Assembly: GCF_025717065.2 (NCBI RefSeq)
Contig: NZ_JAOVZO020000018.1
Location: forward strand, 1,240,001-1,304,000
DNA: 64,000 nucleotides
From: Tahibacter soli
Lineage (GTDB): Bacteria; Pseudomonadota; Gammaproteobacteria; Xanthomonadales; Rhodanobacteraceae
Reading direction: 5' to 3'
In this document: in pieces, positions 8,601 through 34,000 of the stretch
Numbering within the stretch: the stretch's first letter is position 1
Layout of the letters: each line of letters starts with the position of its first letter
Position numbers and translations under genes: made by a program
The notes under the pieces: generated by a model
What the model was told of the DNA's origin: nothing
The model's input: the letters and a program-made list of their open reading frames with translations, nothing else
Database searches by the model: none

Positions 8601-9947
8601 TTACCGCTTGAGCCAGTCGCCGAGCTTTTCGACGGTCCTCGCCTGCACGAAATAGTTGCAGTGGTGCACCTGGTCGCTCGTGGCGAATTCCAGCAGATCG
8701 CCCTTGGGAATGTCGGTGCGGGCGATGCGCGTCATGCAGTCGTTGTCGACGACGAGGTCGTTGGCACGGTCGAACAGCAGGTCGGCGCCCTTGTTCGCCA
8801 GGCGCAGCGTCGGGTTCGCCCAGCGCTTCCAGAATTTCCAGATCGGGGCATCGGGCGTGGCCGGCTCGAAGTTCGACAGGATCGCGAACGGCTTGAAACC
8901 GCCGGGCAGGTCGGCCGCATGCAGGCGCAGCAGTTCCTGGTTGTTCTCGACGCGCGACTGCGCGTGCAGGCCCGGCAGCAGCACGACCCCGGCGTCGACG
9001 AACGACGAATGCGACGCGGTCTGCAGCACGCCGCCGAAAATGCCCATGAGACCGGCCGCGGCGCCGAGAAACGGCGTGAGCGGCGTGACGATCGTGCCGG
9101 CCGCCTTGGCGACGCCGCCGATCGCGCCGGCGAAGTTCGCGAGGTAGTCGAGCGTCGCCTGGATGCGCGAGGGCGCGGCGAGGCTCGTGCCCTGCAGCGG
9201 CGCGCCGACGAAGACGACGTGGCGCACCTTGATCTGCGTCAGCCGCAGCCACCACGCCGCGACGAGCCCGCCGCGGCTGTGGCAGACGATGTCGAGCTCG
9301 CCCGCGTAGCCCGCCGCCGCGAGCGCGTGCTGCAGGTCCAGCGCGTTGAGCACCGGGCTGACCGAAACGGTCGGGTGATCGAAGGTCAGCAGCTGCCGCT
9401 GGCCGGCCGCGAGGCTTTCGAGCAGTTTGCGGCCGGCCGGATCTTCGCCGAGCGTGTCGAAGAACATCTGGCTTTTGGAAAAAGTACCGTGGATCAGCAG
9501 AACGGCCGGCAGCTTCGGATCGACTGCGTCCAGGGTCCATTTGTCGCCGGCCTTCGCGGGCGGGCGGCGGCGCCACAGGCCGTTGTCGGGGTTGAGCCAG
9601 ACGTCGAGCTTCTGCAGACGCTCGATGATCCGGTTCGGCGGAATTTCCTGGAAGCGGAACTCGTGCACCGTCGCGGCGCCCGCGCGACGCACCTCGCGCT
9701 GCGCCGCGCGGCGGGGACCGAGCTTGCGCGGCGGCCGGCGGTAGCTCCAGCGCAGCACGCCGTCGCTGCGTTCGAGCGTCACCGACGCGAGGTTGCCGCC
9801 GACGTCGAGCGACGCGCGGCGCATGCGCTTTTCGGCCGCAGTGCGCGGCGTCTCGACCGGTTCGGTCTGCGCGAACACGTCGAGTTTCGGAACGATGTCG
9901 TCGAGCGCGTGCCTGAGCGTGCTGTCGTCGACCGCGGGCGCGTTCAT
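8601..9947 (-). CDS. Alpha/beta hydrolase of lipase/PGAP1-like type
   Basis: This 448-residue protein has an N-terminal region of about 140 residues with unclear fold, then an alpha/beta hydrolase core. AVLLIHGTFS (near residue 150) is the oxyanion strand, and the nucleophile elbow is CHSRGG with Ser224. Later, NDLVVDNDCM is a likely acid loop, and VHHCNYF, near the C-terminus, supplies a candidate catalytic His. No signal peptide is seen, so it is probably cytosolic. Its ATG overlaps the stop of the CHAT-transglutaminase gene by four bases, so the two are translationally coupled and probably functionally linked. A lipid or ester substrate is only an inference. Confidence 0.75.
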   Translation of the reverse strand: MNAPAVDDSTLRHALDDIVPKLDVFAQTEPVETPRTAAEKRMRRASLDVGGNLASVTLERSDGVLRWSYRRPPRKLGPRRAAQREVRRAGAATVHEFRFQEIPPNRIIERLQKLDVWLNPDNGLWRRRPPAKAGDKWTLDAVDPKLPAVLLIHGTFSKSQMFFDTLGEDPAGRKLLESLAAGQRQLLTFDHPTVSVSPVLNALDLQHALAAAGYAGELDIVCHSRGGLVAAWWLRLTQIKVRHVVFVGAPLQGTSLAAPSRIQATLDYLANFAGAIGGVAKAAGTIVTPLTPFLGAAAGLMGIFGGVLQTASHSSFVDAGVVLLPGLHAQSRVENNQELLRLHAADLPGGFKPFAILSNFEPATPDAPIWKFWKRWANPTLRLANKGADLLFDRANDLVVDNDCMTRIARTDIPKGDLLEFATSDQVHHCNYFVQARTVEKLGDWLKR

Positions 9948-12418
9948 GCGTTGTCTCCCAGTATCGGCAGCGGCCGGACGAGCGCCGCGCGCGCGCTCGC
10001 GATGTCGATCATCAGTTCGAACGCGTTCGCGTCGTCGAGGTTGCGCTGCCCGACGTCGACGGCCTGCCAGAACCCCGAAGCGCTCGTCAGCGCCGTCGCT
10101 TCGAGCAGTACGAGATCGTTGGCCTCGACGCTGCTGACGATCTCGTAGTACGCCGGCGGTCCCGACACCCAGCTTTCGGACTGCACCGTCACGGCCGTCG
10201 ACTGCTGGAACTGGTCGCGCTCCATGTCGGCCGCGGCCTGCGTGCGCGCGTCGACGAAGCGGTCGTGCGCTTCGGGGCTGCGCCAGTAGCCGGCGAACGC
10301 GTGCCCCCGGATCAGGAACACGACGGGGTAGATGTCCACATATTCCAGGCACGCGGCGAGCAGCAGCGCAAGGTCGATGCAGGTGCCGGCGCGCTGGCGC
10401 AGCATCGTGCTCGGCGTGCGCAGGCGCTGCACCGGCGTTTTTCCGCCGTACGACGGCGGGGGATTGATGTAGCCGAGCCGCCAGTCGTAGACGATCGCCG
10501 ACCAGATCGCCAGCACCTGCAGGTCGACGTCCTCGCAGGGGTTGTCGCGCGCGCCGTCGATCGACTGGTAGCCGTCGAAACCGGCGGCGGGATCGTCGCG
10601 CAGCACGCGCACGTAGTTGAACGCGGTGGCGATCAGCGCGGCGATCGCGGGATCGCGCGGCAGCACGAAGCTCGGCAGCCACCAGCGGTCGATGTCGGTG
10701 TCGTGCCACAGGTCGGCCGGCGGCAGCGCGACGGTGAAGCTGTCGCGCTTGAGCACGCGCTCGCCCCAGGTGATTTCGACGAACACGAGCGTGTTGACCG
10801 CTTCGCGCGTCGTGCGCAGCACCGTGTCGATCAGCGACGCCGCGATGTCGCCGGAGAGGTCCACGTTGTCGGCGTCGACGACGACCGTGCGGCGCCACGG
10901 GAACGAACCCTGGCCGCAGCACAGCTCGACGTGCACGTTGATGCCGGCATAGCGGCCGGGCTGCACGCGCACGAGCTTGAACTTGCGAAACAGCGGCCGG
11001 CCGTTGTGCATCAGCGCGTAGTTGAGCTCCCTGAGCGGCTCGATGTCGATCTGCAGATAGTCGTTGATCTTGTCCTGCGGCACGTCGGCCGGATCGATCG
11101 CCTTGAGCTTGTCCGGCGCGTCGTCGACGCAGACGTCGACGGCGGCGCGTCGCTGCGGCCCCGCGTCGACGATCAGCGGCGCGGCCGTCCACAGCACGGC
11201 GCCGGTGCCGGTCGCGGCGGCCGGTCCGCGCGAACGCAGCTTCAGCACGGCGTCGCAGAACGCGTCGCGAAGATTCCACTTCAACGCGCGGTAGCTGCGG
11301 TAGAAATCGGTGAAGAACTGCTCGGTGAGATCGTCGCGGAACCAGTCCTGGAAGCCGATCACGGCGCCGACGCCCTTGCCGATCAGCGCCGGCGCGATTT
11401 CCGACGACGAGTTCCAGAAACTCAGGCTCACGAGCGCGGGGCGCGCGCCGCCGGCGGTCAGCGCGTCGGCGAGCGACTGCGCGGTGAGGTTTTCGATCGG
11501 TTCGGAGCGGTCGGTCGAGACGACGAGATAGCCGTCGTCGATCTTGCGCGCGGACTGCCGGTCGGTCAGATCGCTGTCGACGAGCCGATAGCCCTGGTGC
11601 GCGTCGAAGCCGGCCAGATGCACGATCTGCGGCTGGTACTGGCGAATCTTGGCCGCGAGTTCGGCGCGGGTCGGCTGCTTGAGTTCGCGCCACACGAGAC
11701 CGGCCGCTTTCGCCGCCGCCTTGCCGCACAGCATCGCCTGCGTGAGCGCGCGTTCGGTGGTGAAGCTGTAGGCGTCGCGCAGCCCGCCGGGCTGGCTCTC
11801 GACGTACAGCACGGTTCCGCCCGGCGCCGGCGGCGGGCCGTGCGGTTCGGCGTATTCGAGCTGGCGGCAGACGATCAGCGGGCGGTTGTTGCGCAGCGTG
11901 CGCGTCGCGCTCGTGAGCAGGAATTCCCACGGCATGATGCGGCTTTCCCAGCCGTCGTCGGTGCCGTGGTACGGCACGACGACCTGCGCGAACTCCGACT
12001 GCGCGAGCTGCGCGAGTCCGTCGTCGCCGAGCATCGACGCCACGAGCCGCTCCGCGTCGGACGCGAGCGACCTGACGCGTTCGAGCGAGTTCGACCAGCG
12101 GCGGCGGTTGCGCACGCTCAGCGCCCATTGCATGGCTTCCGAGCGCAGCGCGCGCACCGAGTCGAACGCGCCGAGCACGGCCTCGTCGTAGTCCGGCGGT
12201 TCGGGAACCAGGCGATGTTCGGCCTGCGGCAGACGCAGCCGCGGCAGGCCGTTGTGCGCCGGATCGTCGGCCGGCGCGGCCGGCTGCGGCTTCTTCTTCG
12301 GCGCCCTGGGGCGAGGCGTCGGCTTTTTCGCGGCGACGGCCTTCGGGCTCTCGGACTTCACGACCATGGCATCCCCCGGCGGACCGTGGCGATCGATATC
12401 GATGTTAACTGTACCCAT
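9944..12418 (-). CDS. CHAT-like domain fused to transglutaminase-like domain
   Basis: This is an 824-residue protein. A Lys/Pro/Ala-rich, disordered N-terminus (1-60) is followed by a CHAT-like caspase-fold region (about 100-420). Strand PQIVHLAGFDAHQG (His267) sits where CHAT enzymes have HxxGHG, and ALVSLSFWNSSSE (Trp335) sits where they have the catalytic Cys (xxACxSG). Helices GVGAVIGFQDWFRDDLTEQF and FYRSYRALKWNLRDAFCDA match the rest of the fold. Both catalytic positions appear replaced. A middle beta-rich section (440-600) is unassigned. A transglutaminase-like domain (620-800) has RAGTCIDLALLLAACLE (Cys680) and LIRGHAFAGYW (His706), with LLEAT as the acid strand. The start at 12418 follows GGGAG. 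It is coupled to the downstream hydrolase. Confidence 0.7.
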   Translation of the reverse strand: MGTVNIDIDRHGPPGDAMVVKSESPKAVAAKKPTPRPRAPKKKPQPAAPADDPAHNGLPRLRLPQAEHRLVPEPPDYDEAVLGAFDSVRALRSEAMQWALSVRNRRRWSNSLERVRSLASDAERLVASMLGDDGLAQLAQSEFAQVVVPYHGTDDGWESRIMPWEFLLTSATRTLRNNRPLIVCRQLEYAEPHGPPPAPGGTVLYVESQPGGLRDAYSFTTERALTQAMLCGKAAAKAAGLVWRELKQPTRAELAAKIRQYQPQIVHLAGFDAHQGYRLVDSDLTDRQSARKIDDGYLVVSTDRSEPIENLTAQSLADALTAGGARPALVSLSFWNSSSEIAPALIGKGVGAVIGFQDWFRDDLTEQFFTDFYRSYRALKWNLRDAFCDAVLKLRSRGPAAATGTGAVLWTAAPLIVDAGPQRRAAVDVCVDDAPDKLKAIDPADVPQDKINDYLQIDIEPLRELNYALMHNGRPLFRKFKLVRVQPGRYAGINVHVELCCGQGSFPWRRTVVVDADNVDLSGDIAASLIDTVLRTTREAVNTLVFVEITWGERVLKRDSFTVALPPADLWHDTDIDRWWLPSFVLPRDPAIAALIATAFNYVRVLRDDPAAGFDGYQSIDGARDNPCEDVDLQVLAIWSAIVYDWRLGYINPPPSYGGKTPVQRLRTPSTMLRQRAGTCIDLALLLAACLEYVDIYPVVFLIRGHAFAGYWRSPEAHDRFVDARTQAAADMERDQFQQSTAVTVQSESWVSGPPAYYEIVSSVEANDLVLLEATALTSASGFWQAVDVGQRNLDDANAFELMIDIASARAALVRPLPILGDNA

Positions 12419-12571: not shown

Positions 12572-15500
12572 ATGCAGTCGCCGTTGCTGGTGCGATATGC
12601 CGTGGCCGCGCTGACGGCCGTCGTTCTGATGCTCGCGATGCCCGCGCACGCCGAAGTGTGCTGGGACTACACCGACTTCGAGCCGGCCAAGGTGCCGCTC
12701 AAGTGCGTGCGCATGGGCAATCCCGCGCTCGCCTGTTCGTGGAATCCGACGTGCAACGTCGACAACGATCCGTCCGACTGCTGCATGGCCGTGCCCGATC
12801 CCGGCGCGTCGCAGACGATCGGCGCGATGCACGTCGCGTGGCACGACTGCCTCGGCAACGTCGGTACGAACGCCAATCCGCCGCCGCCGAACCGCGGGCT
12901 GCGCTGGTTCGCGTTCCACCGCCAGTTCGAGAGCGACTTCAACGTCTATCGCGAAACGCTCGGCCTCGACAAGATCGATTCGCTCGAATGGTGCCCCGGC
13001 ATGAACATGCCCTACGGCCATTTCGGCGCGGGCCTGTTGCCCGGCGCGCATCCGCTCGGCTGCGGCACGGGCATCAACCGGCCGAACAATCGTTCCTGCG
13101 ACGGCTGCGAGGCGTTTCGCCGCTGCCTGTATCTCAACGGCGCCGGACCCGCCGCGTGTCCCGCGCCCGCCGCGCCGGTGTGTTCCGTCGGCGGCGTGAC
13201 GTTTCCGTACACGTCGCTCGATCAGTTCAAGAACGCCGACGAAATCGGCACGCTGCTCGATGCGTACTTTCACGGCGCGATGCACGGCGCCGTGTCCGAC
13301 GCCGACGGCGGCGGCTACAACGCCGACTGCGCCGACCCGAGCTGCTCGCCGCGCGACCCGATGTTCTGGCGGCTGCACAAGGCGCTCGACGACGTGATGC
13401 GCGCGTGGCAGAACGTCAAGGCGACCGACGTCGTGCTCGTGATCGACCGCTCCGGCAGCATGTCGGCGCCGTCGGGCACCGGCACCGGTTCGCGCCTGGA
13501 CAACGCGAAAGAGGCCGCCGACCTCTTCGCCGACCTGCTCGAAGACGGGCGCTCCGACGGCGCGGTCAACCGGATTGGATTTGCCTCCTATTCCAACAAT
13601 GCGTCGAATGCCGCATTCAACCTGCCGCTGCAGGATGTGACCCCGACGCTGCGCGATCCCGCCGGCGCGTTCGCGACGAAGCTCGCGTCGCTCGCGGCCG
13701 GCGGCGCGACGTCGATCGGCAGCGGCGTCGTGGCGGCCGTCGGCGAACTGTGCCCGGGGGGCTCGTGCGCGACGCACGTGCCGGCGCCGGGCGAGAACGA
13801 GCGCAAGGCGATGCTGCTCCTGACCGACGGTCTCGAAAACGTCGCGCCGTGCCTGGAAGCCGGCTGCCAGGGCGGCGCCGGCGCCGCGATCGACTACACG
13901 ACGCTCGACGTCGCGCAGGCGTGCGCCGTGGGCCTCGGCAACGCAGCGTCGGTCAACGGCGATCTGCTCACGATCTTCACCGAGCGCCAGGGCGGCATCT
14001 ACCTCAACAACACCGACGCGACCGGCACCGACCTCAAGGATTTCTTCGCCAAGTGCTTCGCGCAGCTGACCGACGAATTCATCGGTCTCGACCCGAACGG
14101 CAGCTTCGGCGCGAACGAAGCGGCCGGGCCGATCGTTCCGTATCAGTCGTGCGACGACAACCGCATCACGTTCGAAGCGGGCTGGAACCGAAGCGACCTG
14201 CCGGGCGACCGTCTGAATCTTCTCGTCACGTCGCCCGACGGCGACGCGTGGGTGCCGTCGGCCGGCGCCGGCGAAATGTCGGCCGAGCGCAGCTGGGCGT
14301 TCAAGCGCAGCGCGCTGCCGTATCGCGGCCAGTCGCAGGGCACGTGGAAAATGCAGCTGCTGCGCCCGCAGGACGCGTTCGTCAACGGCTTTGCGACCGA
14401 CGCGTTCGCCGGCCCGCGCCAGGGCGAGGCGATCGTGCGGCGGCAGCTGCAGCGCCTGTGTCCGGCGGGCAAGGGCGGCAAGACGTCGTGCGGCCGCGTG
14501 CTGTATTTCGAAGACGGCGCGCGCGGACGTTCGGCGTACGAGGCGGCGCTGAAGGCCGAGGGCGGCGTCACCGTCGGCGCGATCGAAGCGACGAACGACG
14601 CGGCGAAATTCGCCGACCTCCTGCGCGAGCGCTGGGATCTGGTCGTCTACGCGCGCCAGGTCGGACCCGATCGCAAGGAGGCGTACGACGCGCCGCTCGC
14701 TCGCGCGATCTGCGGCGGCACGCGCGCGATCGTCACCGACACGCGCGGCGTGCCCGAAGCGGCGTCGATACTGCGCTGCGCCGGCGCCGCACGCGATCCG
14801 CGCGTGGTCAACCGCGATCTCGTGCAGGGCGCCGAGCGCTTTCTCGACGTCGCCGCGAAACTCGTCGACCCGGGCCGGCCCGTGTACGCGTACGGCGTCG
14901 CGCCGATCGGCGGCGGCGCCGGCGCGATCGACGCGCTGTTCGGCGCGCAGGGCGAACGGCCCGGTGCGATCGTCGGCAAGTCTCGCGCGGGCGGCACGAT
15001 CCACTGGCACAAGAACGTGCTCGTCACCGGCCTGTCGCAGCTCACCGCGTTCCCGCCGCGCACGCGCGTGCGCACCGGCGAACCGCTCAAGGCGGCCGTG
15101 CGCATCCTGCCGCCGTTCCAGCGGCTCGGCGGCTATCCGGGATCGAAGATGACCGTCGAAGTCGAACGGCCGACCGCGGGCCTCGGCGGCCTCGTCAAGC
15201 GCACGACGCGCTCGGCGACGGTCAAGGCCGATCCGGTCGGCTCGCTCGAGCGGCAGCTCGGCGCGATGAAAATTGCCACAAGAAAAGACGTATACGAACT
15301 CAACGACTTCGGCAAGGACGGCGACGAGCACGCGCTCAACGGCACGTTCAGCGCCGACCTGCCGATCAGCGCCGCGGTCGACGGCATGTACACGTACCAC
15401 TTCCGTTTCGACTACCCCGTGGCCGGCTGCATGGCGCATCGCGAACTCAAGCAGTCGCTGTTCGTCGACGTGAAGGTGAACCCCGAGCGTTCGAAGGTGA

Positions 15501-15790
15501 CGGTCGGCGATCCCAAGGCCAGCGGTCGCGATCGCGTGTATCCCGTCGCCGTCGCGCCGCAGGACGCGCTCGGCAACGTGATCGGACCCGGCCGCGCGCC
15601 GAAGCTCGCCTGCGCCAAGCCGTGCGCGTGCGATGCGAAGGCCGTGGTCGATCGCGGCGACGGCACGTACGTGATCGGGCTGCGCGTGCCCGACTCGGCC
15701 GAACTCGCCGCGTGCAGTTTCGAGGCGTTCGGCGCGCGCTTCGCGTTCGGCAAGCGTCCGGCGTTTCCGAGCCGGGATTCGCCGCCGTGA
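12572..15790 (+). CDS. Secreted tyrosinase-type copper domain fused to von Willebrand A domain
   Basis: This is a 1,072-residue protein with AGGAAGGA before the ATG. Residues 1-27 are a signal peptide ending AMPAHA. A Cys-rich tyrosinase/haemocyanin-type domain spans about 60-285. Candidate CuA ligands are His87, His91 and His116 (RWFAFHRQFE), and CuB ligands are His234, His238 (FHGAMHG) and His269 in DPMFWRLHKALDD. The next domain is a von Willebrand A fold (about 287-490) with an intact MIDAS, DRSGS (Asp292, Ser294, Ser296), and LLLTDG. The remaining 580 residues hold beta-rich regions, including a segment resembling a receiver-like alpha/beta part and a C-terminal Ig-like part with several Cys. 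It overlaps the next gene by four bases. Substrate unknown. Confidence 0.75.
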   Translation: MQSPLLVRYAVAALTAVVLMLAMPAHAEVCWDYTDFEPAKVPLKCVRMGNPALACSWNPTCNVDNDPSDCCMAVPDPGASQTIGAMHVAWHDCLGNVGTNANPPPPNRGLRWFAFHRQFESDFNVYRETLGLDKIDSLEWCPGMNMPYGHFGAGLLPGAHPLGCGTGINRPNNRSCDGCEAFRRCLYLNGAGPAACPAPAAPVCSVGGVTFPYTSLDQFKNADEIGTLLDAYFHGAMHGAVSDADGGGYNADCADPSCSPRDPMFWRLHKALDDVMRAWQNVKATDVVLVIDRSGSMSAPSGTGTGSRLDNAKEAADLFADLLEDGRSDGAVNRIGFASYSNNASNAAFNLPLQDVTPTLRDPAGAFATKLASLAAGGATSIGSGVVAAVGELCPGGSCATHVPAPGENERKAMLLLTDGLENVAPCLEAGCQGGAGAAIDYTTLDVAQACAVGLGNAASVNGDLLTIFTERQGGIYLNNTDATGTDLKDFFAKCFAQLTDEFIGLDPNGSFGANEAAGPIVPYQSCDDNRITFEAGWNRSDLPGDRLNLLVTSPDGDAWVPSAGAGEMSAERSWAFKRSALPYRGQSQGTWKMQLLRPQDAFVNGFATDAFAGPRQGEAIVRRQLQRLCPAGKGGKTSCGRVLYFEDGARGRSAYEAALKAEGGVTVGAIEATNDAAKFADLLRERWDLVVYARQVGPDRKEAYDAPLARAICGGTRAIVTDTRGVPEAASILRCAGAARDPRVVNRDLVQGAERFLDVAAKLVDPGRPVYAYGVAPIGGGAGAIDALFGAQGERPGAIVGKSRAGGTIHWHKNVLVTGLSQLTAFPPRTRVRTGEPLKAAVRILPPFQRLGGYPGSKMTVEVERPTAGLGGLVKRTTRSATVKADPVGSLERQLGAMKIATRKDVYELNDFGKDGDEHALNGTFSADLPISAAVDGMYTYHFRFDYPVAGCMAHRELKQSLFVDVKVNPERSKVTVGDPKASGRDRVYPVAVAPQDALGNVIGPGRAPKLACAKPCACDAKAVVDRGDGTYVIGLRVPDSAELAACSFEAFGARFAFGKRPAFPSRDSPP

Positions 15791-16182
15791 AACGCTTCGT
15801 TGCGGCGCTCGCCATCGTCGCGGCGGGTGCCGCGCACGCCGCGACACACGGCGCCGCGACCGGCGGCGGCAGCTACTACGTCGAGTGGACGAGCGAGCCC
15901 GACCCGCTGCCCCTGAACGCGCTGTTCGCGCTGCGCGTGCGCGTGCTGCGCGGCGACGACCGCGCGACACCGGTCGCCGGCGCGCAGGTGACTGCGAGCG
16001 CGTGGATGCCCGAGCACAACCATGGCACGACGCTGCAGCCGGACGTCGCACCGCAGGCCGACGGCAGCGCGACCGTCACCGGCTTGCTGCTGCACATGCC
16101 GGGGCATTGGGAACTGCGCATCGGCGTCGCCGCGAACGGGCAGATGGAGCGCGTCGTGTTTCCGGTCGATCTCGAACCGTGA
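15787..16182 (+). CDS. Exported YtkA/FixH-like protein
   Basis: This 131-residue protein starts at a GTG that overlaps the previous stop (GTGA). A clear signal peptide (residues 1-18, FVAALAIVAAGAAHA) precedes one beta-sandwich domain. The segments ALRVRVL, AQVTASAWMPEHNHG and LLHMPGHWELRIGV match the YtkA-like domain, in which a Met/His-containing face (MPEHNHG) is suited to copper. Related proteins accompany cytochrome oxidase or copper systems. The position between a tyrosinase-type copper protein and a di-haem protein, each with a 4-base overlap, suggests a shared periplasmic copper or redox function. The copper role is inference. Confidence 0.8.
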   Translation: MKRFVAALAIVAAGAAHAATHGAATGGGSYYVEWTSEPDPLPLNALFALRVRVLRGDDRATPVAGAQVTASAWMPEHNHGTTLQPDVAPQADGSATVTGLLLHMPGHWELRIGVAANGQMERVVFPVDLEP

Positions 16183-17408
16183 GTCGGTTCGCCGTCGCGT
16201 GCGTGCTGGCGTTCGCGGCGGCGGGCGCGGGCGCCGACGACGCGGTGACGTTCGACGCGCGCGAGTTGCGTGCCATCGTGCGACTGTCGCCGCTGCCGCC
16301 GCCGCCGCGCGATCCGAGCAACGCGGTCGCCGACGATCCGCGCGCGGCGAAGCTCGGCGAACGCCTGTTCTTCGACGCGCGGTTGTCGGCGAACGGCGCG
16401 ACGGCATGCGCGACCTGCCACGATCCGGCCCGCGCGTGGACCGACGGCAAGCGCAGCGCCGACGGCGGCGCGCGTTTCGCGCGCAATACGCCGAGCATTC
16501 GCGACACCGCGCACAACCGCTGGTTCTACTGGGACGGCCGCGCCGACTCGGCCTGGGCGCAGGCGCTGGGGCCGCTCGAGAACGCGCGCGAGATGGGCGG
16601 CAACCGGCTGGCGCAGATCCGTCTCGTCGCGAGCGACGCGCGGCTCGCGGCCGACTACGCGGCGGTGTTCGGCGCGCTGCCCGACGGCATCGCCGATCCG
16701 CGGCGCTTTCCGCCGGCCGCGCGTCCGCTCGTCGACGCGCCGGACGATCCGCTCGACGTCGCGTGGCGCGCGATGCGCGACGACGACCGTCGCGCGGCGA
16801 ACCGCATGTTCGCCGAGATCGGCAAGGCGATCGCGGCGTTCGAGCGCGGCATCACGGTCGGCGAGACGCCGTTCGACCGCTACGTCGCGCGACTCCGGCA
16901 AGGCGACGGCGCGCCGACCCGCGAGTTTACGGTCGCGGCGCAGCGCGGCCTGAAACTGTTCGTCGGGCGAGGGCAGTGCACGCTGTGCCACAGCGGCGCG
17001 GGCCTGAGCGACGGCGAATTCCACGATGTGGGCATCGCGCTCGGTGAAAATCATCGCGTCGATCCGGGCCGGCACCGCGGCGTGCTGACGCTGCTCGCGA
17101 GCGGGTTCACGCGCGCGGGCGAGTATGCGGACGCGATCGCGGCCGATGCGCCGATCCGCTATCTCGCCTTGCAGAGCGACCAGCTCGGGCAGTTCAAGAC
17201 GCCGACGCTGCGCGGCGTGGCCGGCACCGCGCCGTACATGCACGACGGGCGGTTCGATACGCTCGAGCAAGTGGTGCGTTTCTACTCGACGCGTGTAGGG
17301 GCGAGCCCGCTCGGGCATCCGACGACGCTGCTCAAGCCGTTGGGGTTGAATGAAGGGGAGGTTGGCGATCTGGCCACGTTCTTGCGCGCGCTGGGGGGCG
17401 AGCGGTAG
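16179..17408 (+). CDS. Periplasmic di-haem cytochrome c peroxidase / MauG-like protein
   Basis: This 409-residue protein starts at a GTG overlapping the previous stop (GTGA); the leader SRFAVACVLAFAAAGAGA is cleaved after about residue 19. Two c-type haem sites are present: CATCH (Cys77, Cys80, His81) and CTLCH (Cys267, Cys270, His271). Family segments LGERLFFDARLSANGATACA, RNTPSIRDTAHNRWFYWDGR, GPLENAREMG and PTLRGVAGTAPYMHDGRFDT are all present. MauG/CcpA proteins either reduce peroxide or oxidise residues of a partner protein. Its place as the third gene of an overlapping operon with the tyrosinase-VWA protein favours modification of, or electron transfer with, that partner. Which of the two activities applies is not decided by the sequence. 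Confidence 0.88.
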   Translation: MSRFAVACVLAFAAAGAGADDAVTFDARELRAIVRLSPLPPPPRDPSNAVADDPRAAKLGERLFFDARLSANGATACATCHDPARAWTDGKRSADGGARFARNTPSIRDTAHNRWFYWDGRADSAWAQALGPLENAREMGGNRLAQIRLVASDARLAADYAAVFGALPDGIADPRRFPPAARPLVDAPDDPLDVAWRAMRDDDRRAANRMFAEIGKAIAAFERGITVGETPFDRYVARLRQGDGAPTREFTVAAQRGLKLFVGRGQCTLCHSGAGLSDGEFHDVGIALGENHRVDPGRHRGVLTLLASGFTRAGEYADAIAADAPIRYLALQSDQLGQFKTPTLRGVAGTAPYMHDGRFDTLEQVVRFYSTRVGASPLGHPTTLLKPLGLNEGEVGDLATFLRALGGER

Positions 17409-17680: not shown

Positions 17681-17821
17681 ACGCCGGCGCGGACGCGTCC
17701 GGCATGACGGCGGCAGGGCCGGACCCGTTTCGTGTATCGATGTAGAATGATTGCATTCTTCAACGGAAGAGCTTGCCGGCTCGCATCCGCGTATCGCCCC
17801 CCTGGACGAAGGAGAACCGAA

Positions 17822-18301
17822 GTGGTCAGCAAGAATACGATCTGCCTGTGGTACGACGATGCCGCGCTGGACGCGGCGAAGTTCTACGCCGCGACGTTTC
17901 CGGACAGCGAAGTCAAATCCCTCTATTACGCGCCCGGCGACTATCCCTCGGGCGAGGAGGGCGATCTCCTGACGGTCGAGTTCACGGTGCTCGGCATTCC
18001 GTGCGTGGGCATCAACGGCGGACCGGCCTTCAAGCAGACCGAGGCGTTCTCGTTCCAGGTGGCGACCGACGACCAGGCCGAAACCGACCGCCTGTGGAAC
18101 GCGATCGTCGGCAACGGCGGTCAGGAAAACGCGTGCGGCTGGTGCAAGGATCGATGGGGACTGTCGTGGCAGATCACGCCGCGCGCGCTGCTGGAGGCGA
18201 TCGCCGACCCCGACCGCGCGGCGGCCAAGCGCGCTTTCGACGCCATGATGGAGATGACGAAGATCGACATCGCGAAGATCGAAGCGGCGCGGCGCGGGTG
18301 A
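17822..18301 (+). CDS. VOC family / PhnB-like protein
   Basis: This 159-residue protein starts at GTG 17822, 7 bp after AAGGAG. The sequence TICLWYDDAALDAAKFYAAT, followed by GDLLTVEFTVLGIPCVGINGGP and CGWCKDRWGLSWQITPRAL, is that of the 3-demethylubiquinone methyltransferase-like (PhnB) branch of the vicinal oxygen chelate superfamily. Members are single-domain, usually dimeric. Most lack known substrates despite the historical name. It is a single gene, with palindromic repeats downstream. The upstream ATG at 17732 was rejected because the extra residues have no family match. Confidence 0.88.
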   Translation: MVSKNTICLWYDDAALDAAKFYAATFPDSEVKSLYYAPGDYPSGEEGDLLTVEFTVLGIPCVGINGGPAFKQTEAFSFQVATDDQAETDRLWNAIVGNGGQENACGWCKDRWGLSWQITPRALLEAIADPDRAAAKRAFDAMMEMTKIDIAKIEAARRG

Positions 18302-24668: not shown

Positions 24669-25032
24669 TGCGCGCCGCGGCCTGCGCGTGCTCGGACCTT
24701 CTCGTCGGTTGGACCATTGGCGAGTGTCCCTGTGGACATTGCGCAAAATACAAAGTGCGGTAATTCGGAACGCTTGCATCGTTGCGATTTTCACGCGGCA
24801 TTGACGCTCGCGTGGCCTATACATTCCGAGAAGTACGGAGCGTGAGCGAACACGTGCGGGCAGGCGTGCGTGTTCGTTGTACGTCGGGTTGCGCGTGCCG
24901 GAAAGCTGCTGCGCGCGTGAAGGTCAGGGCTCGGCGCAAGGGACTACCAGGAGGGCGATCGAAACCGGCCGTTACGGGCCGGGCGGACGCGTGCGTCCTC
25001 AAATCGGCGCGACATCAGCTAGGGGTCAGGCA
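24669..25032. other. Non-coding upstream region of the giant surface-protein gene
   Basis: No credible gene lies in this 364-bp stretch, which completes the divergent region with the CRP site. A strong 6-bp hairpin, CCGGCC-GTTACG-GGCCGG, is at 24965-24982, and GGCGCAAGGGACTACCAGGAGG is at 24930-24955. AGGGGTCAGG at 25021-25030 is the ribosome site. It may be a structured 5' leader, but it does not match a riboswitch consensus I can confirm. Confidence 0.4.
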
Positions 25033-28000
25033 ATGCACACGACAGATATCACGCAGGCGATACGAAGCACGGCGACCAGTGCCGTCTCGTCGGCGCAGGC
25101 GCAGCCCGCGGCCGATACCGGCCGCATCGTCCGGTCACGAACGCGCGTCGTCGCCGGCTGGCTCGCCGCCGCATTGGCGATGTTTTATACTATGCCACAA
25201 GTTAATGCGGCGCCCGGCGACAACCTCGCGCTCGGCAAGCCCGTGACGATGTCGGGCGGCAATCCCGCCGATCCCACGCAGCACGGCGCCAACTGCGTCG
25301 ACGGCGTGACCGCCGGCAACTATCCGACGAATACGATCTGCCGCACGACCGGCGCGCAGACCGGCGCCAATCGCGAGTGGATAGAGGTCGATCTCGGCCA
25401 GGACTACGTCATCGATCGCGTGCGCCTGTTCAACCGCACCGACGGCGCGAACGGCGACTTTGCGCGCTGGGTCGTCGTCACGACGCGACCGTCCTCGTTG
25501 ACCGGCGTCACGTCCGACCCGCAGTCGACGCTCGATACCGCGGTCAACCCCAGTGCGCCGTTCGTCAACAAGATCGCCTACGCGACCGGCAATACCGCCG
25601 GTGTTTCGTACGGCACCGCGCAGGCCGCGGCGTATACGTCGCTCGACCTGCAGGTCGGCCGGCACATCGCGCGCTATGTGCGCATCTATTCGATGAAGCC
25701 GGCGCCGACAGCGCTGAACCTTGCGGAAATCCAGGTGATCGAGGGGCCGCCGCCGGTCCGCACGATCGGCAATGCGAGCTTCGAATTGCCGGGCGTCGCC
25801 GCCAGCTCGTTCGCGCAGATCTCCGAAACGCTCGTGCCGGGCTGGTCGACGACCGAGCCCGTAGCGGTGCCGACGACCGGCGCGTCGTTCGTCAACGGCG
25901 GCGACGTCGAGATGTGGGGCAACGGGTTCGGCGGCGTCCTGGCGGACAACGGCCTGCGGTTCGTCGAACTCAATGCCTACAGCAACGGCGCGCTCAGCCC
26001 GTATCCGTTGTGCGTGTATCCCGGCGAAACATTCCAGTGGCGCGTCTCGCATCGCGCTCGCGGCGCCGCAGCGCAAGTCGACGTCGCGCGGCTGCGTATC
26101 GCCGGACAGGACATCGCGACCTTCAGCGACGGCACGATACAGGCCGGCACTCATACGTGCGCGCCCGCGCCGGGCTATACGTGCACCGCGCAGGCCGGTT
26201 CGCCGACCACGGCCGGTTGGGGCCGCTGGGAAGGCTCGTGGACGAACGCGGCGCCGACGCCGACCGCGATGACGTTCGAATTCGCCGCGATCTCGGCGAG
26301 CGGTCCGGGGGCCGGCAATTTCATTGACAACGTCAGCATCACGGGCCTGACCGCCGCGGTGGAACTGTCCGGCGACGCGAGCGGATCGGAAACGATACCG
26401 ACGGCGAACCTGCCGACGCTGCTGGTCAACGGTCCGGTCACGGTGGCGCAGACGATCCAGCTCGACATCACGGGCGGCACGGCCATGCGCGGCGTCGACT
26501 ACACGACGACGCCGGCGACCGGACCGATCACGATCACGATTCCGGTCGGCACGTACGACGGCACGGCCGCGACGTCGATCTCGCTCGCGCCGTACATCCA
26601 GGTGACGTCCGACTTCGCGATCGAAGGCGACGAGACGATCGCGCTCGGCGTCGGCAATCCGTCGGGCGGGTTGTCGATCGCGGGCGCGTCGGGTTGCCGC
26701 GCCGGCGTCGCGACCGCGACGTATACGATTCTCGATCTCGTGCAGCCGCAGATCACGGTGACAAAGACCGCCGCGCCGACGCCGTTCCAGACCGGCCAGC
26801 CGGCGAGCTATGCGATCACGATCGAGAACACGGGCAATGCGACCACCGTCGGCAACATCACGCTGGCTGACACTTTGCCGGCCGGCATCACGCTCGCGAG
26901 CGCGAGCGGCACGAACTGGAGCTGCACCGGCACGACGACGCTCGCGTGCACGTTCACCGGCACGCTCGCGGTCGGCGCGAGCACGGTGCTGACGCTGAAC
27001 GTCAACGTCGGCCTCGGCGCCGTGTCGACCGGCGGCAACAACTCGGCGACGGCCCGCGGCGGCGGCGATCCCGACTGTCCGGCGAGCGGCGCGACCGCGG
27101 CGCACTGCACCGGCACCGTCAACGTGTCGGTCGTCAGCGGCTACGTGTGCTCGCCGTCGACGATCTTCGTCGCGCAAGGGACGCCGACGCAGCTCAACGC
27201 GCAGACCTACGGTGCGGGCAGCACGACATTCACGCCGATCGGGCCGGCCGTGTGGAGCTACAACGCGATCGCCTATCGCGCAGCCGACAATTTCATCTAC
27301 GGGGTCAGCGGCGACCTCGACGCCGGCCATCCGGCGAACCGCCTGCTGCGCGTCGATCCCGGCACCGGTGCGGTCAGCAATCTCGGCGCGATCACCGGCG
27401 CGCTGCCGGCGAGCGGCAGCGCCAACGTCGGCGTGTTCGACGGCGCCGGCAACTACATCATGGCGCAGTCGTCCGAGCAGCGGTTCATGCGCGTGAACCT
27501 GACGACGCGCGTGTCGACCGCCGTCGCGCTGGCGCCGGCGCAAGCGATCGCGATCGCCGACCTCGCGTTCGCGAACGGCTTCCTGTGGGGCGCCGACGGC
27601 GGCACCAACCCGGCGCAGATGGTGCGCATCAATCCGAACAACGGCGCGATCGCGCGCTTCAACATACCGGCCGCCGTGATTCCGACCGGCGTCGCGTTCG
27701 GCGCGGCGTGGACGTTCGGCAACGGCAATCTCGGTTTCTCGGACAACAACACCGGCAACGTCTACCAGGTGCGCGTGACCAACCCGACCGGCACGCCGAC
27801 GTTCGCGCGCGTGAGCCTGTCGCCGGGCCCGACCTCGGGCCAGAACGACGGCACGTCGTGCGTGTCGCCGCCGATCGACCTTGCGATTTCCAAGACCGGT
27901 CCGGCCAGCGTCGCTCCCGGCGGCGCGATCTCGTGGACCGTCACGGTCACGAACAACGGCCCGCTCGCGAGTTCCGGCTTCACCGTCACCGACACCGTGC

Positions 28001-31000
28001 CCGCCGGCGTTACCGGCATCGCATCGCCGACGCCGGGCTGCACCGTCGCCGGCAGCACGGTGACGTGCGTCGGCGGCACGTTGGCCAGCGGCGCATCGTT
28101 CGCCTTCACCATCAACGCCGTCGCGCCGAATCCGTTCGCGACGCCGATCACGAACGCGGCTTCGGTCGAAGGCAACGAAACCGATCCGGTGCCCGGCAAC
28201 AACACAGCGACGCACACGATCACGCCGCCGCCGCCGGCGAACGTCGCGGTCTCCAAGGCGCTGACCGGCGAGAGCGGTACGATCGCGGGGCAGGCCGAGC
28301 CGGGCGAACAGCTCACCTACACGATCGCGCTGACGAATACCGGCGGCCAGGCGGCCACCGGCTACGGCGTGACCGATACGCTCGATCCGAACGTGACGTA
28401 CGTCTCGTCGACCGGCGGCGGCGCGTTCGCCGCCGGCGCGGTGACGTGGACCGGCCTGACCGTGCCGGCCGGCGGAATGCTGACATTGCAGATTGTTGTA
28501 CAGGTGAACAATCCGATTCCCGACGGCGTCTCGCGCATCGGCAACGCGGCGTACCAGACGGGCGGCACACCGCCGAACTGCACGACCTCGCCGCTGCCGG
28601 CGAACTGCACGTCGATACCGACCGTCGCGAAAGTGACGCACGAGAAGGTCGCCGGTGTGCCGGCGACGACCGGCACGCCGAACGAATACCGCATCACCTA
28701 CACGGTGACGGTGACGAACCACGGCGGCAGCGGCGGTACGTACGATCTCGCCGACACGCTGACGTTCAACGGCGCGACGGTGACGGCGATTACGCCGCCG
28801 ACGTACGCGTCGACGACGGGCGACGTGCAGAGCGGCACGCCCGGCACGTTCGCGCCGCCGGGCGGCGGCACGATCGTCACCGGCGAGACGATCGGTGCGC
28901 TCGGTGTGGAAACGTGGACTTATACCGTCACGTACACGATCGCGAATCCGGCCGTCGCGGCGAATTGCGCGACGCCGGCCGGCGGTCTGCGCAACAGCGC
29001 GGCGCTCGGCGGCGGCACGACCGGCGTGCCGCCGGTCGCGATCTGCTCGGGCGCGCCGAACGTGTCGATCCTCAAAGCGGCGGCGACGCCGGTGCCGACC
29101 GGCACGCCGAACCAGTTCACGCTGACCTACACCGTCGACGTGACCAACACCGGCACGCTGGCCGGCAGCTACGACCTCGGCGACACCTTCGCGTTCAACG
29201 GCGCGACCGTGAACACGGTCAGCGCGGCGGCCTACAGCTCGACGAGCGGCGATACGCAGACTGGCACGCTCGGCGCGTTCGGCGCGCCGACGGGCGGCAC
29301 TATCGTCACCGGAGAAGCGATCGCGGTCGGCGGCGCCGAACGCTGGATCTACAGCGTGACGTACACCGTGACGAACGCTGCGACCGCGCAGAACTGCGCG
29401 TCGCCGACCGGCGGCCTGCGCAACAGCGCCGAACTCGGCGGCGCGATGAACGGGCAGGCGACGATCTGCACCGGTGCGCCGGCCGTCGGCATCGCCAAGG
29501 CCGTCAGCGGCCCGACGCCGACCGGCATCGTCAACCAGTACCGCCTGAGCTATCTCGTCACCGTGCGCAACGACGGCACGCTGCCGGGCACGTACGACCT
29601 CACCGACGCGTTTACGCTGCCGGGCGCCACGGGCGTGACGGTCGGCGCCGTGACGCACGGCGGCGCCGATCCGCTCGCGACGACGCTCGGCACGCTGACG
29701 GCTGCCGGCGGATCCATCGTCACGAACGAGACGATCGCCGCGGGCGCGCTCGAAACCTATGCGTACGACGTCGTGTTCACCATCGCAAATCCGGCGACGG
29801 TCGGCGTGTGCAGCGCGAGCGGCGGCCTGCGCAACCAGGCGGCGCTCGGCGGTTCGTCCGCGGGCTTCGTCGGCACGTGCAGCGACGTGCCGAACATCGT
29901 CGTGACGAAGGTAGCGAGCGCACCGGCCGCGACCGGCGCGCCGAACCAGTACGTCATCGCGTACGTCGTCACCGTCAACAACACCGGCAGCGCGGCCGGC
30001 CTGTACGACCTGACCGACGCGTTCGCGTACAACGGCGCGGTGGTCGACGCGGTCAGCGCGGTCTCGCATGCCGGCACCGATTCGCTGTCGACGACGCTCG
30101 GCGCATTGACGACGGCGGGCGGCACGATCGTCAACGCCGAACCGATCGGTGCGGCGACGAGCGAAACGTACAGCTATTCCGTCGTGCTGACGCTGACGAA
30201 CCCCGCGACCGCGAACGACTGCGCATCGCCGTCCGGCGGCCTGCGCAACACGGCGGCGCTCGGCGGCGCGGTGAGCGGCAGCGGTTCGGCGTGCAGCGGC
30301 GCGCCGGTGATCGCGGTGTCGAAGGCGCTGACCGGCGAGAGCGGCACGCAGGCCGGCATCGCCGAGCCGGGCGAAACGCTCACGTACACGATCACGCTGA
30401 CGAACACCGGCAGCGCGGCCGAGACGAACTACCCGGTCACCGACGCGCTCGATCCGAACACCGTGTTCGTCTCGGCGACCGGCGGCGGAACTTATGCGGC
30501 CGGCAATGTGAACTGGACGGGCCTCACCGTCGCGGCCGGCGGCACGACGACGGTGACGGTCACCGTGATCGTCAGCGCGCCGATCGCGCCGGGCGTCGCG
30601 CAGATCGGCAACGTCGCGTACCAGACCGGCACGACACCGCCGGCGTGTCCGCCGGCGAGCCCGCAGTGCGTGCTCGTGCCGACCGCGGGTTCCGTCACGG
30701 TGTCGAAGGCGCTGACCGGCGAGAGCGGCACGCAGGCCGGCATCGCCGAACCGGGCGAGCAGCTCACGTACACGATCACGCTGACGAACGCCGGCGGCAG
30801 CGCCGCGTTGAATTTCTCGGTCACCGATCAACTCGATCCGAACACGGCGTTCGTGAGCGCGACCAACGGCGGCACGTTCTCGGCCGGCGCGGTGAGCTGG
30901 ACGGGCCTGACGGTGCCGGCCGGCGGTACGCTGACGCTGACCGTCGTCGTGACGGTGAATTCGCCGATTCCGCCGGGCGTGACGCAGATCGGCAACGTCG

Positions 31001-34000
31001 CGTACGAAACGGGCTCGTCGCCGCCGGCATGTCCGCCGGCGAGCCCGCAATGCGTGCTCGTGCCGACCGCGGCGCAGGTCGCGATCGTCAAGGCGCTCGC
31101 GAGCGAGTCGGGCACGCAGCCCGGCGTCGCCGAACCCGGCGAGCAGCTCACGTACACGATCACGCTGACCAATACCGGCGGCAGCAACGCGACGAACTAC
31201 GCCGTCACCGACGGACTCGATCCGAACGTCGGCTTCGTCAGCGCGAGCAACGGCGGCGCACCGGCCGGCGCCAACGTCCAGTGGACGGGCCTGACCGTTC
31301 CCGCGGGCGGCAGCGTCGTGCTGACCGTCGTGGTCAGCGTCGACACGCCGATTCCTCCGGGCGTCACCGCGATCGGCAACGTCGCGTACAACCCGACCGT
31401 CGGCCCGCCGAACTGCGGCGTCGTTCCGCTGCCGCCGAACTGCACGAGCACGCCGACGCCGGACCTGACCGACTTCGGCGACGCGCCCGACAGCTTCGGC
31501 ACGCTGCTCGCCAGCAACGGCGCGCGTCATGCCGCGGCCAATCTCAACGTCGGCGCCAATACCGCGCCGCTGATGCTCGGCGCGACGATCGACGCCGAAG
31601 CCGACGGCGTGCCCGATCCGGGGGCGCTCGGCGACGACGGCACCGGCATCGACGACGAGGACGTGCTGTTCGGATCGATCACGCTGCAGCCGGGCACTAC
31701 GAGCGCCTCGCTCGATGTTCCGGTCGCCAACGCGACAGGCGGTCCTGCCAATCTGTACGCCTGGATCGACTTCAACGGCAACGGCGTGTTCAACGCGGCC
31801 GAGGCGGGCAACTGCCCGCCGGTGCCGGCGGCGGTCACGAGCGTCACCTGCACCTGGTCTGGCCTGGCGCCGCTCGTCGACGGCTTTGAGACCTACGCGC
31901 GACTGCGCCTCACCACGCAGACGCTTGCCGCCGGCACCGCGCCGAACGGCGGCGACGCCCGCGCGCAGGGCCCGGCGAGCGACGGCGAGGTCGAAGATCA
32001 TCGCGTCGTCGTGGCGACGACCTTGCCCCTGACTTGCGAGGCGCCGTTCGTCGATACCTTCGGTACCTTTGCGGCGGCACCGGGCGCATTCGCCGGTTGG
32101 GGACAGGCGCTGCCGGCCGGCACGACCACCTATGCGTTCCAGGCAGGCTCGGCGGCGCCGGCGAACACGGTCGGAGCCGGCCAGTACGCGCTGCTGACCA
32201 ACCCGAGCCGCAGCCATGCCACCGCATGGCAGAACGTGCCCGATCATACGGTCGGCGACACCGACGGCTTCATGCTGGTCGTCAATGGCAGTCCGGGGCC
32301 GGGCGTGTTCTACAGGCAGACCTTCAGCGGTCTGATCATCGGCGCGCGCTACCGCTTCTTCTCGTCGCTGGCCAACGTCGTGGCGGGCCTCAATCTCGGC
32401 TTGCCGAACGTCACGCTGCGGGTCGTCGATCCGGCGACGAACGCCGTGCTTGCTTCGACCAATACGGGCGACATACCGGAAGATCCCGCCGGCGCGATGA
32501 CGTGGCATTCGCACCAGCTGATCTTCACCGCGACGCAAAGCAGTATCCGGCTCGAGCTCGCGAACAATTCCGGAGTGGGCGGCGGCAACGACGTCGCGCT
32601 CGACGACATCGGCTTCGCGCAGGTCTGCGAACTCGGCGACGCGCCGGACAGCTATGCGACGCTCAACGCGAGCGACGGCGCCGGACATCTCTTCCCCGGC
32701 ACGGGACTCAGTCTCGGCAGCGGCGTGCCGGACGGCGAGGTCGACGGCCAGCCCGGCATCGATGCCGACGGCGACGACCTCAACGGCAGCGACGACGAAA
32801 ACGCGTTCCCGGGCGGCGCCGCGTCGCTCGTGATCGCGGCGCCGTACGTCCTCGCCGTGCCGGTCGACACGACGTCCGGCGACGCGACGGCCTGTGCGTG
32901 GCTCGATCTCGACCAGAACGGCGGCTTCGGCGCCGCGGAAGGCCAGTGCCAGCCGCTGGCGGCCGGCGCGACCACGGCCGGCTTCGCCTGGAGCGGGGCC
33001 GCCACGACGGGACTCGCCGTCGGCAGCACCTATCTGCGCCTGCGCATCGAACGCAACGGCATACTCCCGGCGAACCTCGGCACGACGGACTTCGCCGGGG
33101 TCCGCGGACCGGGCGAGGTCGAAGACTACGTCGTCCCGGTACTCGCGCCGGCGAACGTGACGCTGGCCAAGGCGCTGTCCGCCGAGGACGGCAGCGTTGC
33201 GAACGTCGCCGAGCCGGGCGAGCAGCTCACGTACACGATCACGCTGACCAATTCGGGCGGCGTTCCCGCGGCGAACTACGGCGCGACCGACACGCTCGAT
33301 CCGAACACGGCGTTCGTCAGCGCGACGAACGGCGGCGCTTTCGCGGCGGGCAGCGTCACGTGGAGCGGCCTGACCGTGCCGGCGAACGGCAATCTCGTGC
33401 TGACGGTCGTCGTGACCGTCAACGCGCCGATACCGCCGGGCGTCGCGCAGATCGGCAACGTCGCGTACGAAACCGGCACGACGCCGCCGCCGTGTCCGCC
33501 CGCGGGCGGGCAGTGCGTCGTCACGCCGACCGCGGCGCAGATCTCGCTGACGAAGACCGGCGGCACGCCGGTCGCCACGGGGACGCCGAACCAGTTCTCG
33601 ATCACCTACGTCGCGACCGCGCGCAACGACGGCGGCAGCGCAGGCTTGTACACGCTGACCGACGCGTTGTCGTTCAACGGCGCGACGGTCAACGCGATCT
33701 CGACGCCGGCCTACGCGACGACGACCGGCGACACGCAGACCGGCACGCCCGGCACGTTCGTTCCGCCGACGGGCGGCACGATCGTGACCGGCGAAGGCCT
33801 CGCGCCGCTCGGTGTGGAAACGTGGACTTATACCGTCACCTACACGGTGACCGACCCGGTGCTCGCGGCGAACTGCGGGAGCCCGACCGGCGGCCTGCGC
33901 AACAGCGCGGCGATCGCGGGCGACACGGCGGCGACGTGCTCGGGCGCGTCGAACGTCAATATCGTCAAGACCGCCGGTGCGCCGGTGCCGCTCGGCCCGC

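Follow-up and report, generated by a model that had tools for sequence, protein, structure and literature searches.

An operon of three exported proteins

We analysed a stretch of 64,000 nucleotides from Tahibacter soli (contig NZ_JAOVZO020000018.1, positions 1,240,001 to 1,304,000; hereafter the window), whose genome assembly comprises 6.65 Mb across 23 contigs. Three plus-strand open reading frames (ORFs), here called A, B and C, are arranged as one operon, and the A/B and B/C junctions each share a 4-base overlap of the sequence GTGA. The N-terminus of each protein reads, by eye, as a Sec signal peptide.

12572..15790, plus strand: gene A, 1072 amino acids; exported protein with a predicted type-3 copper domain, a VWA domain and a C-terminal half
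15787..16182, plus strand: gene B, 131 amino acids; YtkA-like exported protein with W73-M-P-x-H77-x-H79-G and H103-M104-x-G-x-W108
16179..17408, plus strand: gene C, 409 amino acids; exported di-haem protein of the MauG/cytochrome c peroxidase (CCP) family

An earlier note on this DNA had described the coupled frames, six tyrosinase-type His ligands in A (87, 91, 116, 234, 238 and 269) and an intact metal-ion-dependent adhesion site (MIDAS; Asp292, Ser294 and Ser296), and had called B YtkA-like and C a CCP/MauG-family protein with two CxxCH motifs. The coordinates, both overlaps and the positions of all these residues proved correct, and Pfam agrees with the families of B and C.

Rare relatives of A keep its predicted metal ligands

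In a scan of one genome per species (84,980 species, alignment A2), 67 pattern matches led to three relatives of A. They are found in metagenome-assembled genomes of a proteobacterium (L016, 71% identity over A, judged by its length and position to be the same contig as G050/L010), of Myxococcota (L017, 58% identity) and of Saprospiraceae (L018, 45% identity). None of the four proteins differs at the six His, the MIDAS residues, T380 or D419, and because this holds at 71, 58 and 45% identity, these features of A are not due to chance. All four family members match VWA_2 and Tyrosinase of Pfam at E ≤ 1 (best 1e-11 and 2.5e-6, respectively). The copper-VWA part shares 81% identity with L010/L016, against 71% for the whole of A, and the uncorrected ratio of nonsynonymous to synonymous change (pN/pS) between the window and L010 is 0.32 for A, 0.46 for B and 0.44 for C.

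Sampled searches also indicate that the A family is rare. Two full-length copies (the window and G050) and a third, partial match were found in 398 genomes of the order, and a sample of 398 from the phylum gave only the copy in the window. One copy was found among 282 genomes of the phylum of L017 (its own genome, with 3 partial matches elsewhere) and one among 348 genomes of the order of L018 (again its own, with 1 partial match). As to a mobile origin, no relative of A was found in viral contigs or in 72,556 plasmid records.

The earlier note had proposed an operon of copper and haem proteins, and named unlinked genes in relatives as evidence to the contrary. The linkage is supported by two relatives. 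In L010 all three genes are present and overlap; in L017 all three are present too, the frames of B and C overlapping and a short gap separating A from B. The L018 contig ends 2 bases after A, so that linkage to B-C cannot be judged there. In L010, A-B-C is convergent with a gene for a CusA/CzcA-family resistance-nodulation-division pump (over the cut-off) and an adaptor that matches CusB below the cut-off.

The copper domain of A has an unusual CuA spacing

The predicted copper domain follows the signal peptide and holds two His triads, CuA and CuB.

12572..12652, plus strand: signal peptide of A (residues 1-27), Sec-type, with AHA as its last residues and EVCW following, read from the sequence
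12653..13423, plus strand: copper domain of A, residues 28-284, with 16 Cys (CuA H87/H91/H116, CuB H234/H238/H269), from Pfam and profile alignment
12830..12832, plus strand: His87, predicted CuA ligand 1, invariant in 4/4
12842..12844, plus strand: His91, predicted CuA ligand 2 with H-x3-H spacing, invariant in 4/4, from the phenoloxidase alignment
12917..12919, plus strand: His116, predicted CuA ligand 3, invariant in 4/4
13271..13285, plus strand: His234-x3-His238, predicted CuB ligands 1 and 2, from Pfam, invariant in 4/4
13376..13378, plus strand: His269 in RDPMFWRLHKALDD, predicted CuB ligand 3, from Pfam and the phenoloxidase alignment, invariant in 4/4

The type-3 hallmark, six His residues in two triads with a CuB of the form H-x3-H-x(n)-H, is present in A and invariant in the family. 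The Tyrosinase profile of Pfam matches A over the cut-off (E = 6.4e-6) and covers positions 154-213 of its 214 only, which is the CuB half. The earlier description of the ligands as tyrosinase-type is thus borne out for CuB and fails for CuA. The CuA spacing in A is H87-x3-H91-x24-H116, and the canonical tyrosinase pattern H-x(n)-H-x8-H is absent, as the four family members have N, N, G and G at the position 9 residues ahead of the third His; both canonical tyrosinases of the window genome have His there. Of the residues described by Aguilera et al. (PMC3658974), A keeps D273 and F265, the Asp four residues after and the Phe four residues before the third CuB His, and the CuA counterpart of that Phe is Trp (W112).

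An H-x3-H at CuA is typical of arthropod type-3 copper proteins. When the copper-domain profile was compared with the PDB, only 3 matches were found at E ≤ 10 and all of them are type-3 copper proteins (two chains of phenoloxidase 3hhs, E = 0.18 and 1.8, and haemocyanin 3j32, E = 0.41), none being significant singly. The CuA and CuB regions are collinear with those of 3hhs, with H87, H91 and H116 in register. As single sequences, the copper domain of L017 has no PDB match and that of L018 has one (E = 2.9), to a 680-residue chain with the unconfirmed label TK receptor. In contrast, one canonical tyrosinase of the window genome matches 62 PDB sequences at E ≤ 0.001, with no 3hhs chain in the best 60 of the 62. 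When profiles were compared with one another, the copper domain aligned with the two tyrosinases of that genome at CuB only (probability 11%, E = 0.0027), against 0.5% and 0.1% for the B and C alignments used as controls. Hemocyanin_M stays below its cut-off on A (E = 0.34, 10.5 vs 20.8 bits) and matches none of 200 genomes of the order, the window genome included, at E ≤ 0.01; TyrosinaseMelC2 scores 11.1 against a cut-off of 450 bits.

AlphaFold models, each built on the 4-row alignment, were obtained for residues 28-520 of A (predicted local distance difference test, pLDDT, 38.0; predicted template modelling score, pTM, 0.33) and for the copper domain alone (pLDDT 43.8, pTM 0.46). The confidence of both is too low to use, so two coppers bound by the six His in a four-helix core are a prediction. 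Helices coincide with the His pairs in these low-confidence models, and Foldseek returned no match at E ≤ 10 with the copper-domain model.

Passages of Aguilera et al. (PMC3658974) state that beta-subclass type-3 proteins place the second CuA His differently, and a published survey did not find the animal beta-subclass CuA spacing in bacteria. Judged by its sequence, the copper domain is a type-3 site that has diverged and whose CuA spacing is beta-like, rather than an established beta-subclass member. The weak Tyrosinase match, limited to the CuB half, and the lack of a confident fold (both models of low confidence, no Foldseek match) could also mean that A is only an adhesin, its copper domain being a type-3 remnant that has degenerated and lost catalysis. 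We regard this as improbable, because the six His are invariant across assemblies labelled Proteobacteria, Myxococcota and Saprospiraceae, and identity is higher over the copper-VWA part than over the entire protein.

B and C belong to the YtkA and CCP/MauG families

B matches Pfam YtkA (PF13115) with E = 6.1e-6 and 27.2 bits against a cut-off of 25.9. The L017 copy of B has no PF13115 match (G404) and was identified by its 46% identity to B; therefore negatives with PF13115 are soft. All 11 paired YtkA proteins of our aligned set share M-P-x-H-x-H-G and M-x-G-x-W. Against the PDB, the B profile gives 5 hits at E ≤ 10; the best of them (E = 0.62) is not significant, nor are the others, which include a "copper resistance protein" (E = 0.71). 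C matches Pfam CCP_MauG (PF03150) over the cut-off with E = 3e-39 and has these haem-related features:

16407..16421, plus strand: first haem-binding CxxCH of C, C77-H81, by motif
16977..16991, plus strand: second haem-binding CxxCH of C, C267-H271, by motif
17283..17285, plus strand: Tyr369 of C, predicted His-Tyr haem ligand, aligned with a Met of peroxidase 4aao and a Tyr of 6e1c

The best PDB match of C is 6e1c, a "di-heme enzyme" (E = 2.7e-29), which we take to be MbnH. Tyr369, presumably a haem ligand, is Tyr in 11/11 aligned di-haem proteins, and Q128 and E134 are conserved across the same set of 11. C falls short of the cut-offs for MauG (TIGR03791, 147.1 vs 443.85 bits) and for MbnH (TIGR04039, 132.1 vs 362.85 bits).

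The di-haem gene usually pairs with the YtkA gene

Among 250 genomes of the order, the window's included, 6 have a relative of B at E ≤ 1e-8, and a di-haem gene is adjacent in all six; in G051 and G067, B and C are fused as a single protein of 511-513 amino acids. Five plasmid records hold a C relative at E ≤ 1e-20; B lies next to it in four of them, and in the fifth (Rhodobacteraceae S2214) its place is taken by an unnamed gene. From the phylum of L017, 30 hand-chosen, non-random genomes gave 10 YtkA-matching loci, 3 of which have a strong di-haem neighbour (L066, L067 and L074) and 1 a weak one (L076); at L071, L072 and L075 the frame picked is implausible and the YtkA gene itself is unconfirmed. 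The other CCP_MauG gene of the window genome (L013:6548-7717, E = 2.2e-55) has no YtkA-like gene in its 14-kb locus, nor on its contig by a genome-wide YtkA search. Since B-C pairs occur without an adjacent A (11 of the 14 B-C loci examined) and are fused in two genomes, the usual partner of C is B, not A.

Adjacency and natural fusion would also suit a reading in which C chemically modifies B, which binds copper once modified; MbnH/SACCP-type enzymes are likewise linked to a copper site of MbnP or MopE in which Trp is converted to kynurenine. The best PDB match of C is to the "di-heme enzyme", B has Trp residues beside its His and Met (W73 and W108), and passages of PMC3621798 provide the MopE/SACCP precedent, with MbnP/MbnH as a similar pair. 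Yet W73 is found in only 3/11 paired YtkA proteins and also in the unpaired L062 and L069, W108 is found in the unpaired L062, L069 and L073 as well, and C misses the MbnH-family cut-off. As neither candidate Trp is confined to YtkA proteins with a di-haem partner, we downgraded this idea and now hold it to be unlikely.

B-C pairs lie beside three classes of copper oxidase

The neighbours of the 14 B-C loci fall into several classes, given here as a plain tally. Three pairs lie beside a type-3 copper-VWA gene (window, L010 and L017). In two loci of one genus, the fused pair is directly downstream of a gene for an exported galactose-oxidase-like protein of ~2160 amino acids (L060:273-8347 and L061:3750-11821). 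The L060 copy matches 9g8h with E = 2.1e-81, and Cys, Tyr, Tyr-His and His are aligned, which we take to have their galactose oxidase roles. Another two pairs sit immediately after ctaG in cytochrome oxidase operons, with the order COX3-COX4-CtaG-B-C in L077 and, in L079, UbiA-type (CtaB-like)-unscanned ORF-COX1-COX3-cytochrome c-CtaG-B-C, followed by SURF1 on the other strand. One pair is near CopC/CopD, a cytochrome c and MtrB (L055). Near the remaining six (L051, L052, L053, L054, L058 and L078) no copper oxidase was recognised, the neighbours being assessed by annotation (L051, L052), by ORF list and Pfam of two neighbours each (L053, L058, L078) or by ORF list only (L054).

Two further observations concern these loci. 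Of the two loci with the YtkA/MauG-like fusion, the G051 copy also has CCP_MauG, PKD, PA14 and Ig-type matches. On a Cereibacter plasmid (L052:1-7059), the YtkA/di-haem pair comes after an autotransporter gene and a Sel1-repeat gene.

Horseradish peroxidase keeps galactose oxidase active, and C could similarly be mainly a peroxidase or redox activase that removes or uses hydrogen peroxide made or needed by a copper oxidase, with B as its electron or copper partner. C does belong to the CCP/MauG superfamily, its conserved Q128 and E134 are presumably catalytic as in CCP, and galactose-oxidase-like enzymes, one of the client classes, produce hydrogen peroxide. However, Tyr369 (11/11) stands where peroxidase 4aao has a Met, Tyr at this position being a feature of the modification branch MauG/MbnH, and cytochrome oxidases normally release no hydrogen peroxide. 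We consider such a role for C rather unlikely.

The VWA and C-terminal modules of A occur with other enzyme heads

13424..14086, plus strand: VWA domain of A, ~residues 285-505 (end approximate), with MIDAS D292-x-S294-x-S296, T380 and D419; from Pfam, invariant in 4/4
14087..15787, plus strand: C-terminal half of A, ~residues 506-1072; no Pfam match, best PDB match E = 0.03 (not significant), parts recurring behind other heads

Pfam VWA_2 matches A over the cut-off (E = 5.7e-6). At L015:5586-8720 (G315) and L042:4320-7244 (G1410), the VWA domain and parts of the C-terminal half are preceded by a trypsin-like head where A has its copper domain. A C-terminal piece of ~180 residues (the "FVNGF" module) follows other heads in L039, L040 and L041, three further assemblies of the phylum of L017. 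Those heads look alike and, by eye, resemble alpha/beta-hydrolases; Pfam has a match in L040 only (PETase family) and none in L039 or L041. When 11 di-haem and 11 YtkA-like queries were used in tblastn, neither gene was found beside any of the five module loci, L039 and L041 being whole contigs of just 5.3 and 4.6 kb. The proteins of L017 and L018 end in an apparent membrane span and a basic tail, absent from the window and L010 proteins. The enzyme head looks exchangeable. Because of this and of the lack of a di-haem or YtkA-like gene beside the module loci, the VWA part looks like a scaffold more than a MauG substrate.

The latter role belongs to the proposal of the earlier note, on which a protein target is oxidised or crosslinked by C together with A, or the VWA protein is itself modified by C. 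In its favour, MauG is an enzyme that alters residues of its partner, and A has a VWA domain of the protein-binding type with an intact MIDAS. Against these points, A is not beside B-C in 11/14 pair loci, B and C are fused in two genomes, and a di-haem or YtkA-like gene was found beside 0/5 loci (two of them short contigs) in which VWA or C-terminal modules carry trypsin-like or other heads. An action of C on the VWA protein is thus not supported, and we give the proposal a low probability.

Proposed function

CtaK, the YtkA protein of Bacillus subtilis, has conserved His and Met, is required for cytochrome c oxidase at low copper and is defective as a His118Tyr mutant, and YtkA (CtaK) supports copper-site assembly in Bacillus, according to passages of PMC9145763 and PMC13344008. 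Because B-C pairs lie beside varied copper oxidases without A, and CtaK supports copper-site assembly, we read B-C as a pair for the assembly or activation of copper oxidases and A as its secreted client, a reading to which we give an even chance. It builds on gene order, invariant residues, the pairing and fusion of B and C, and the presence of the pair beside three unrelated copper-oxidase classes. Also in its favour are CopC/CopD near the pair of L055 and the efflux pump genes next to the operon of L010. Copper binding and transfer, the redox step and the substrate are what we infer from them.

On this proposal, A is an exported, Cys-rich protein whose N-terminal domain would hold a dinuclear type-3 copper site and probably uses O2 to oxidise phenols, catechols or tyrosyl groups, while its VWA domain and C-terminal half may place it on a partner or surface. 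B, as a periplasmic copper-binding protein of the YtkA/CtaK type, would use its M-P-x-H-x-H-G and H-M ligands to deliver copper to A, as its family and motif suggest. C, as a MauG-type di-haem enzyme, would work on or with B; it might set the redox state of the copper or use peroxide to activate the copper site. B-C would then be a transferable unit, used also for heme-copper oxidases and galactose-oxidase-like enzymes.

Three observations weigh against this. No copper oxidase was recognised near 6/14 B-C loci, as judged by annotation, ORF lists and Pfam of a few neighbours. YtkA homologues without a di-haem neighbour within ~1.5 kb exist (at least L062, L069 and L073), so that C is not needed for every YtkA. 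Finally, no close homologue of C was found in the 8.4-Mb assembly of L018 (best E = 2.5e-19 over 112 positions); the matches in the other two A-bearing relatives reach E = 1.7e-240 or better.

More tentatively, a YtkA-type carrier and a MauG-type enzyme, sometimes in one polypeptide, may form a general device that assembles or activates copper oxidases of unrelated folds (caa3-type heme-copper, galactose-oxidase-like radical and type-3), its client in the window being a bacterial phenoloxidase-like domain with the CuA spacing of the animal beta subclass. We think this possible, but less likely than not. The component families are already known; what is new is how the genes are combined, where the pair lies (beside three classes of copper oxidase) and how the CuA ligands are spaced. 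If the proposal is true, a MauG-family enzyme gains a role in copper-enzyme assembly, YtkA/CtaK is tied to clients beyond respiration, and a bacterial type-3 site with arthropod-like CuA spacing becomes relevant to how the phenoloxidases and haemocyanins of arthropods arose. The original observation holds and is conserved. We no longer read it as a system that crosslinks a target or modifies a MauG substrate; the predicted function is now that of a secreted copper oxidase served by a pair of copper-assembly proteins.

Surroundings of the operon

The operon probably consists of A, B and C only, because the CHAT-domain gene upstream of A (9947-12418) is on the opposite strand and a gap of ~320 bases separates C from the downstream 3-dmu-9_3-mt gene (17732-18301, same strand). 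The promoter scan gave no site, the terminator scan gave 2 against 3.9 expected, and neither an Rfam family at the gathering threshold nor a tRNA was found in the window. The divergent neighbours of A (8601-12418, minus strand) encode the CHAT-domain protein and a DUF7379 alpha/beta-hydrolase. Farther downstream (24877-37335, plus strand) an open frame of 4152 amino acids, in which DUF11, DUF6923, GEVED and CARDB repeats abound, encodes a giant repeat protein of the surface type; the frame of 4098 amino acids opposite to it has no Pfam match at E ≤ 1e-5.

Comparison with known systems

The earlier note was not aware of any description of the combination, and in the literature searched, mostly non-subscription papers, no description of an A-B-C operon or of a YtkA/di-haem pair was found. 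The term MauG is not found in the main text of PMC9145763 and PMC13344008. Tyrosinase genes in lodA operons, and VWA domains in two LodA-like proteins, are mentioned in passages of PMC4417212.

Like arthropod phenoloxidases and haemocyanins, A has a CuA H-x3-H followed by a distant third His, and RDPxF[YFW]RxH...DD at CuB; unlike them, it is bacterial, Cys-rich, with a domain of ~257 amino acids fused to VWA, and its matches to them are individually non-significant. With bacterial alpha-subclass tyrosinases (PF00264) it shares a CuB half over the Pfam cut-off and HR at the third CuA His, but their canonical second CuA His is missing in 4/4 of the A family. Streptomyces MelC1/MelC2 resembles A-B in that a type-3 copper enzyme is encoded beside a copper-delivery partner, although B is YtkA-like and not MelC1, and the di-haem gene is extra.

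C resembles MauG in its two CxxCH motifs and in the Tyr found where peroxidase 4aao has Met, but misses the TIGR03791 cut-off and is encoded in a three-gene operon without a methylamine dehydrogenase gene. In MbnP/MbnH and MopE/SACCP (CorA/CorB), as in B-C, a MauG-like di-haem enzyme has a partner gene, with a link to copper in MopE (passages of PMC3621798); here the partner is YtkA-like, the Trp targets are not specific and the TIGR04039 cut-off is missed. B belongs to the same Pfam family as B. subtilis CtaK (YtkA) and the YtkA domain of YcnJ and has the His/Met motif, and a parallel with CtaK is seen in the two relatives of the B-C pair that lie in cytochrome oxidase operons. Unlike CtaK and YcnJ, B is translationally coupled to a di-haem gene and to the gene of a type-3 copper protein.

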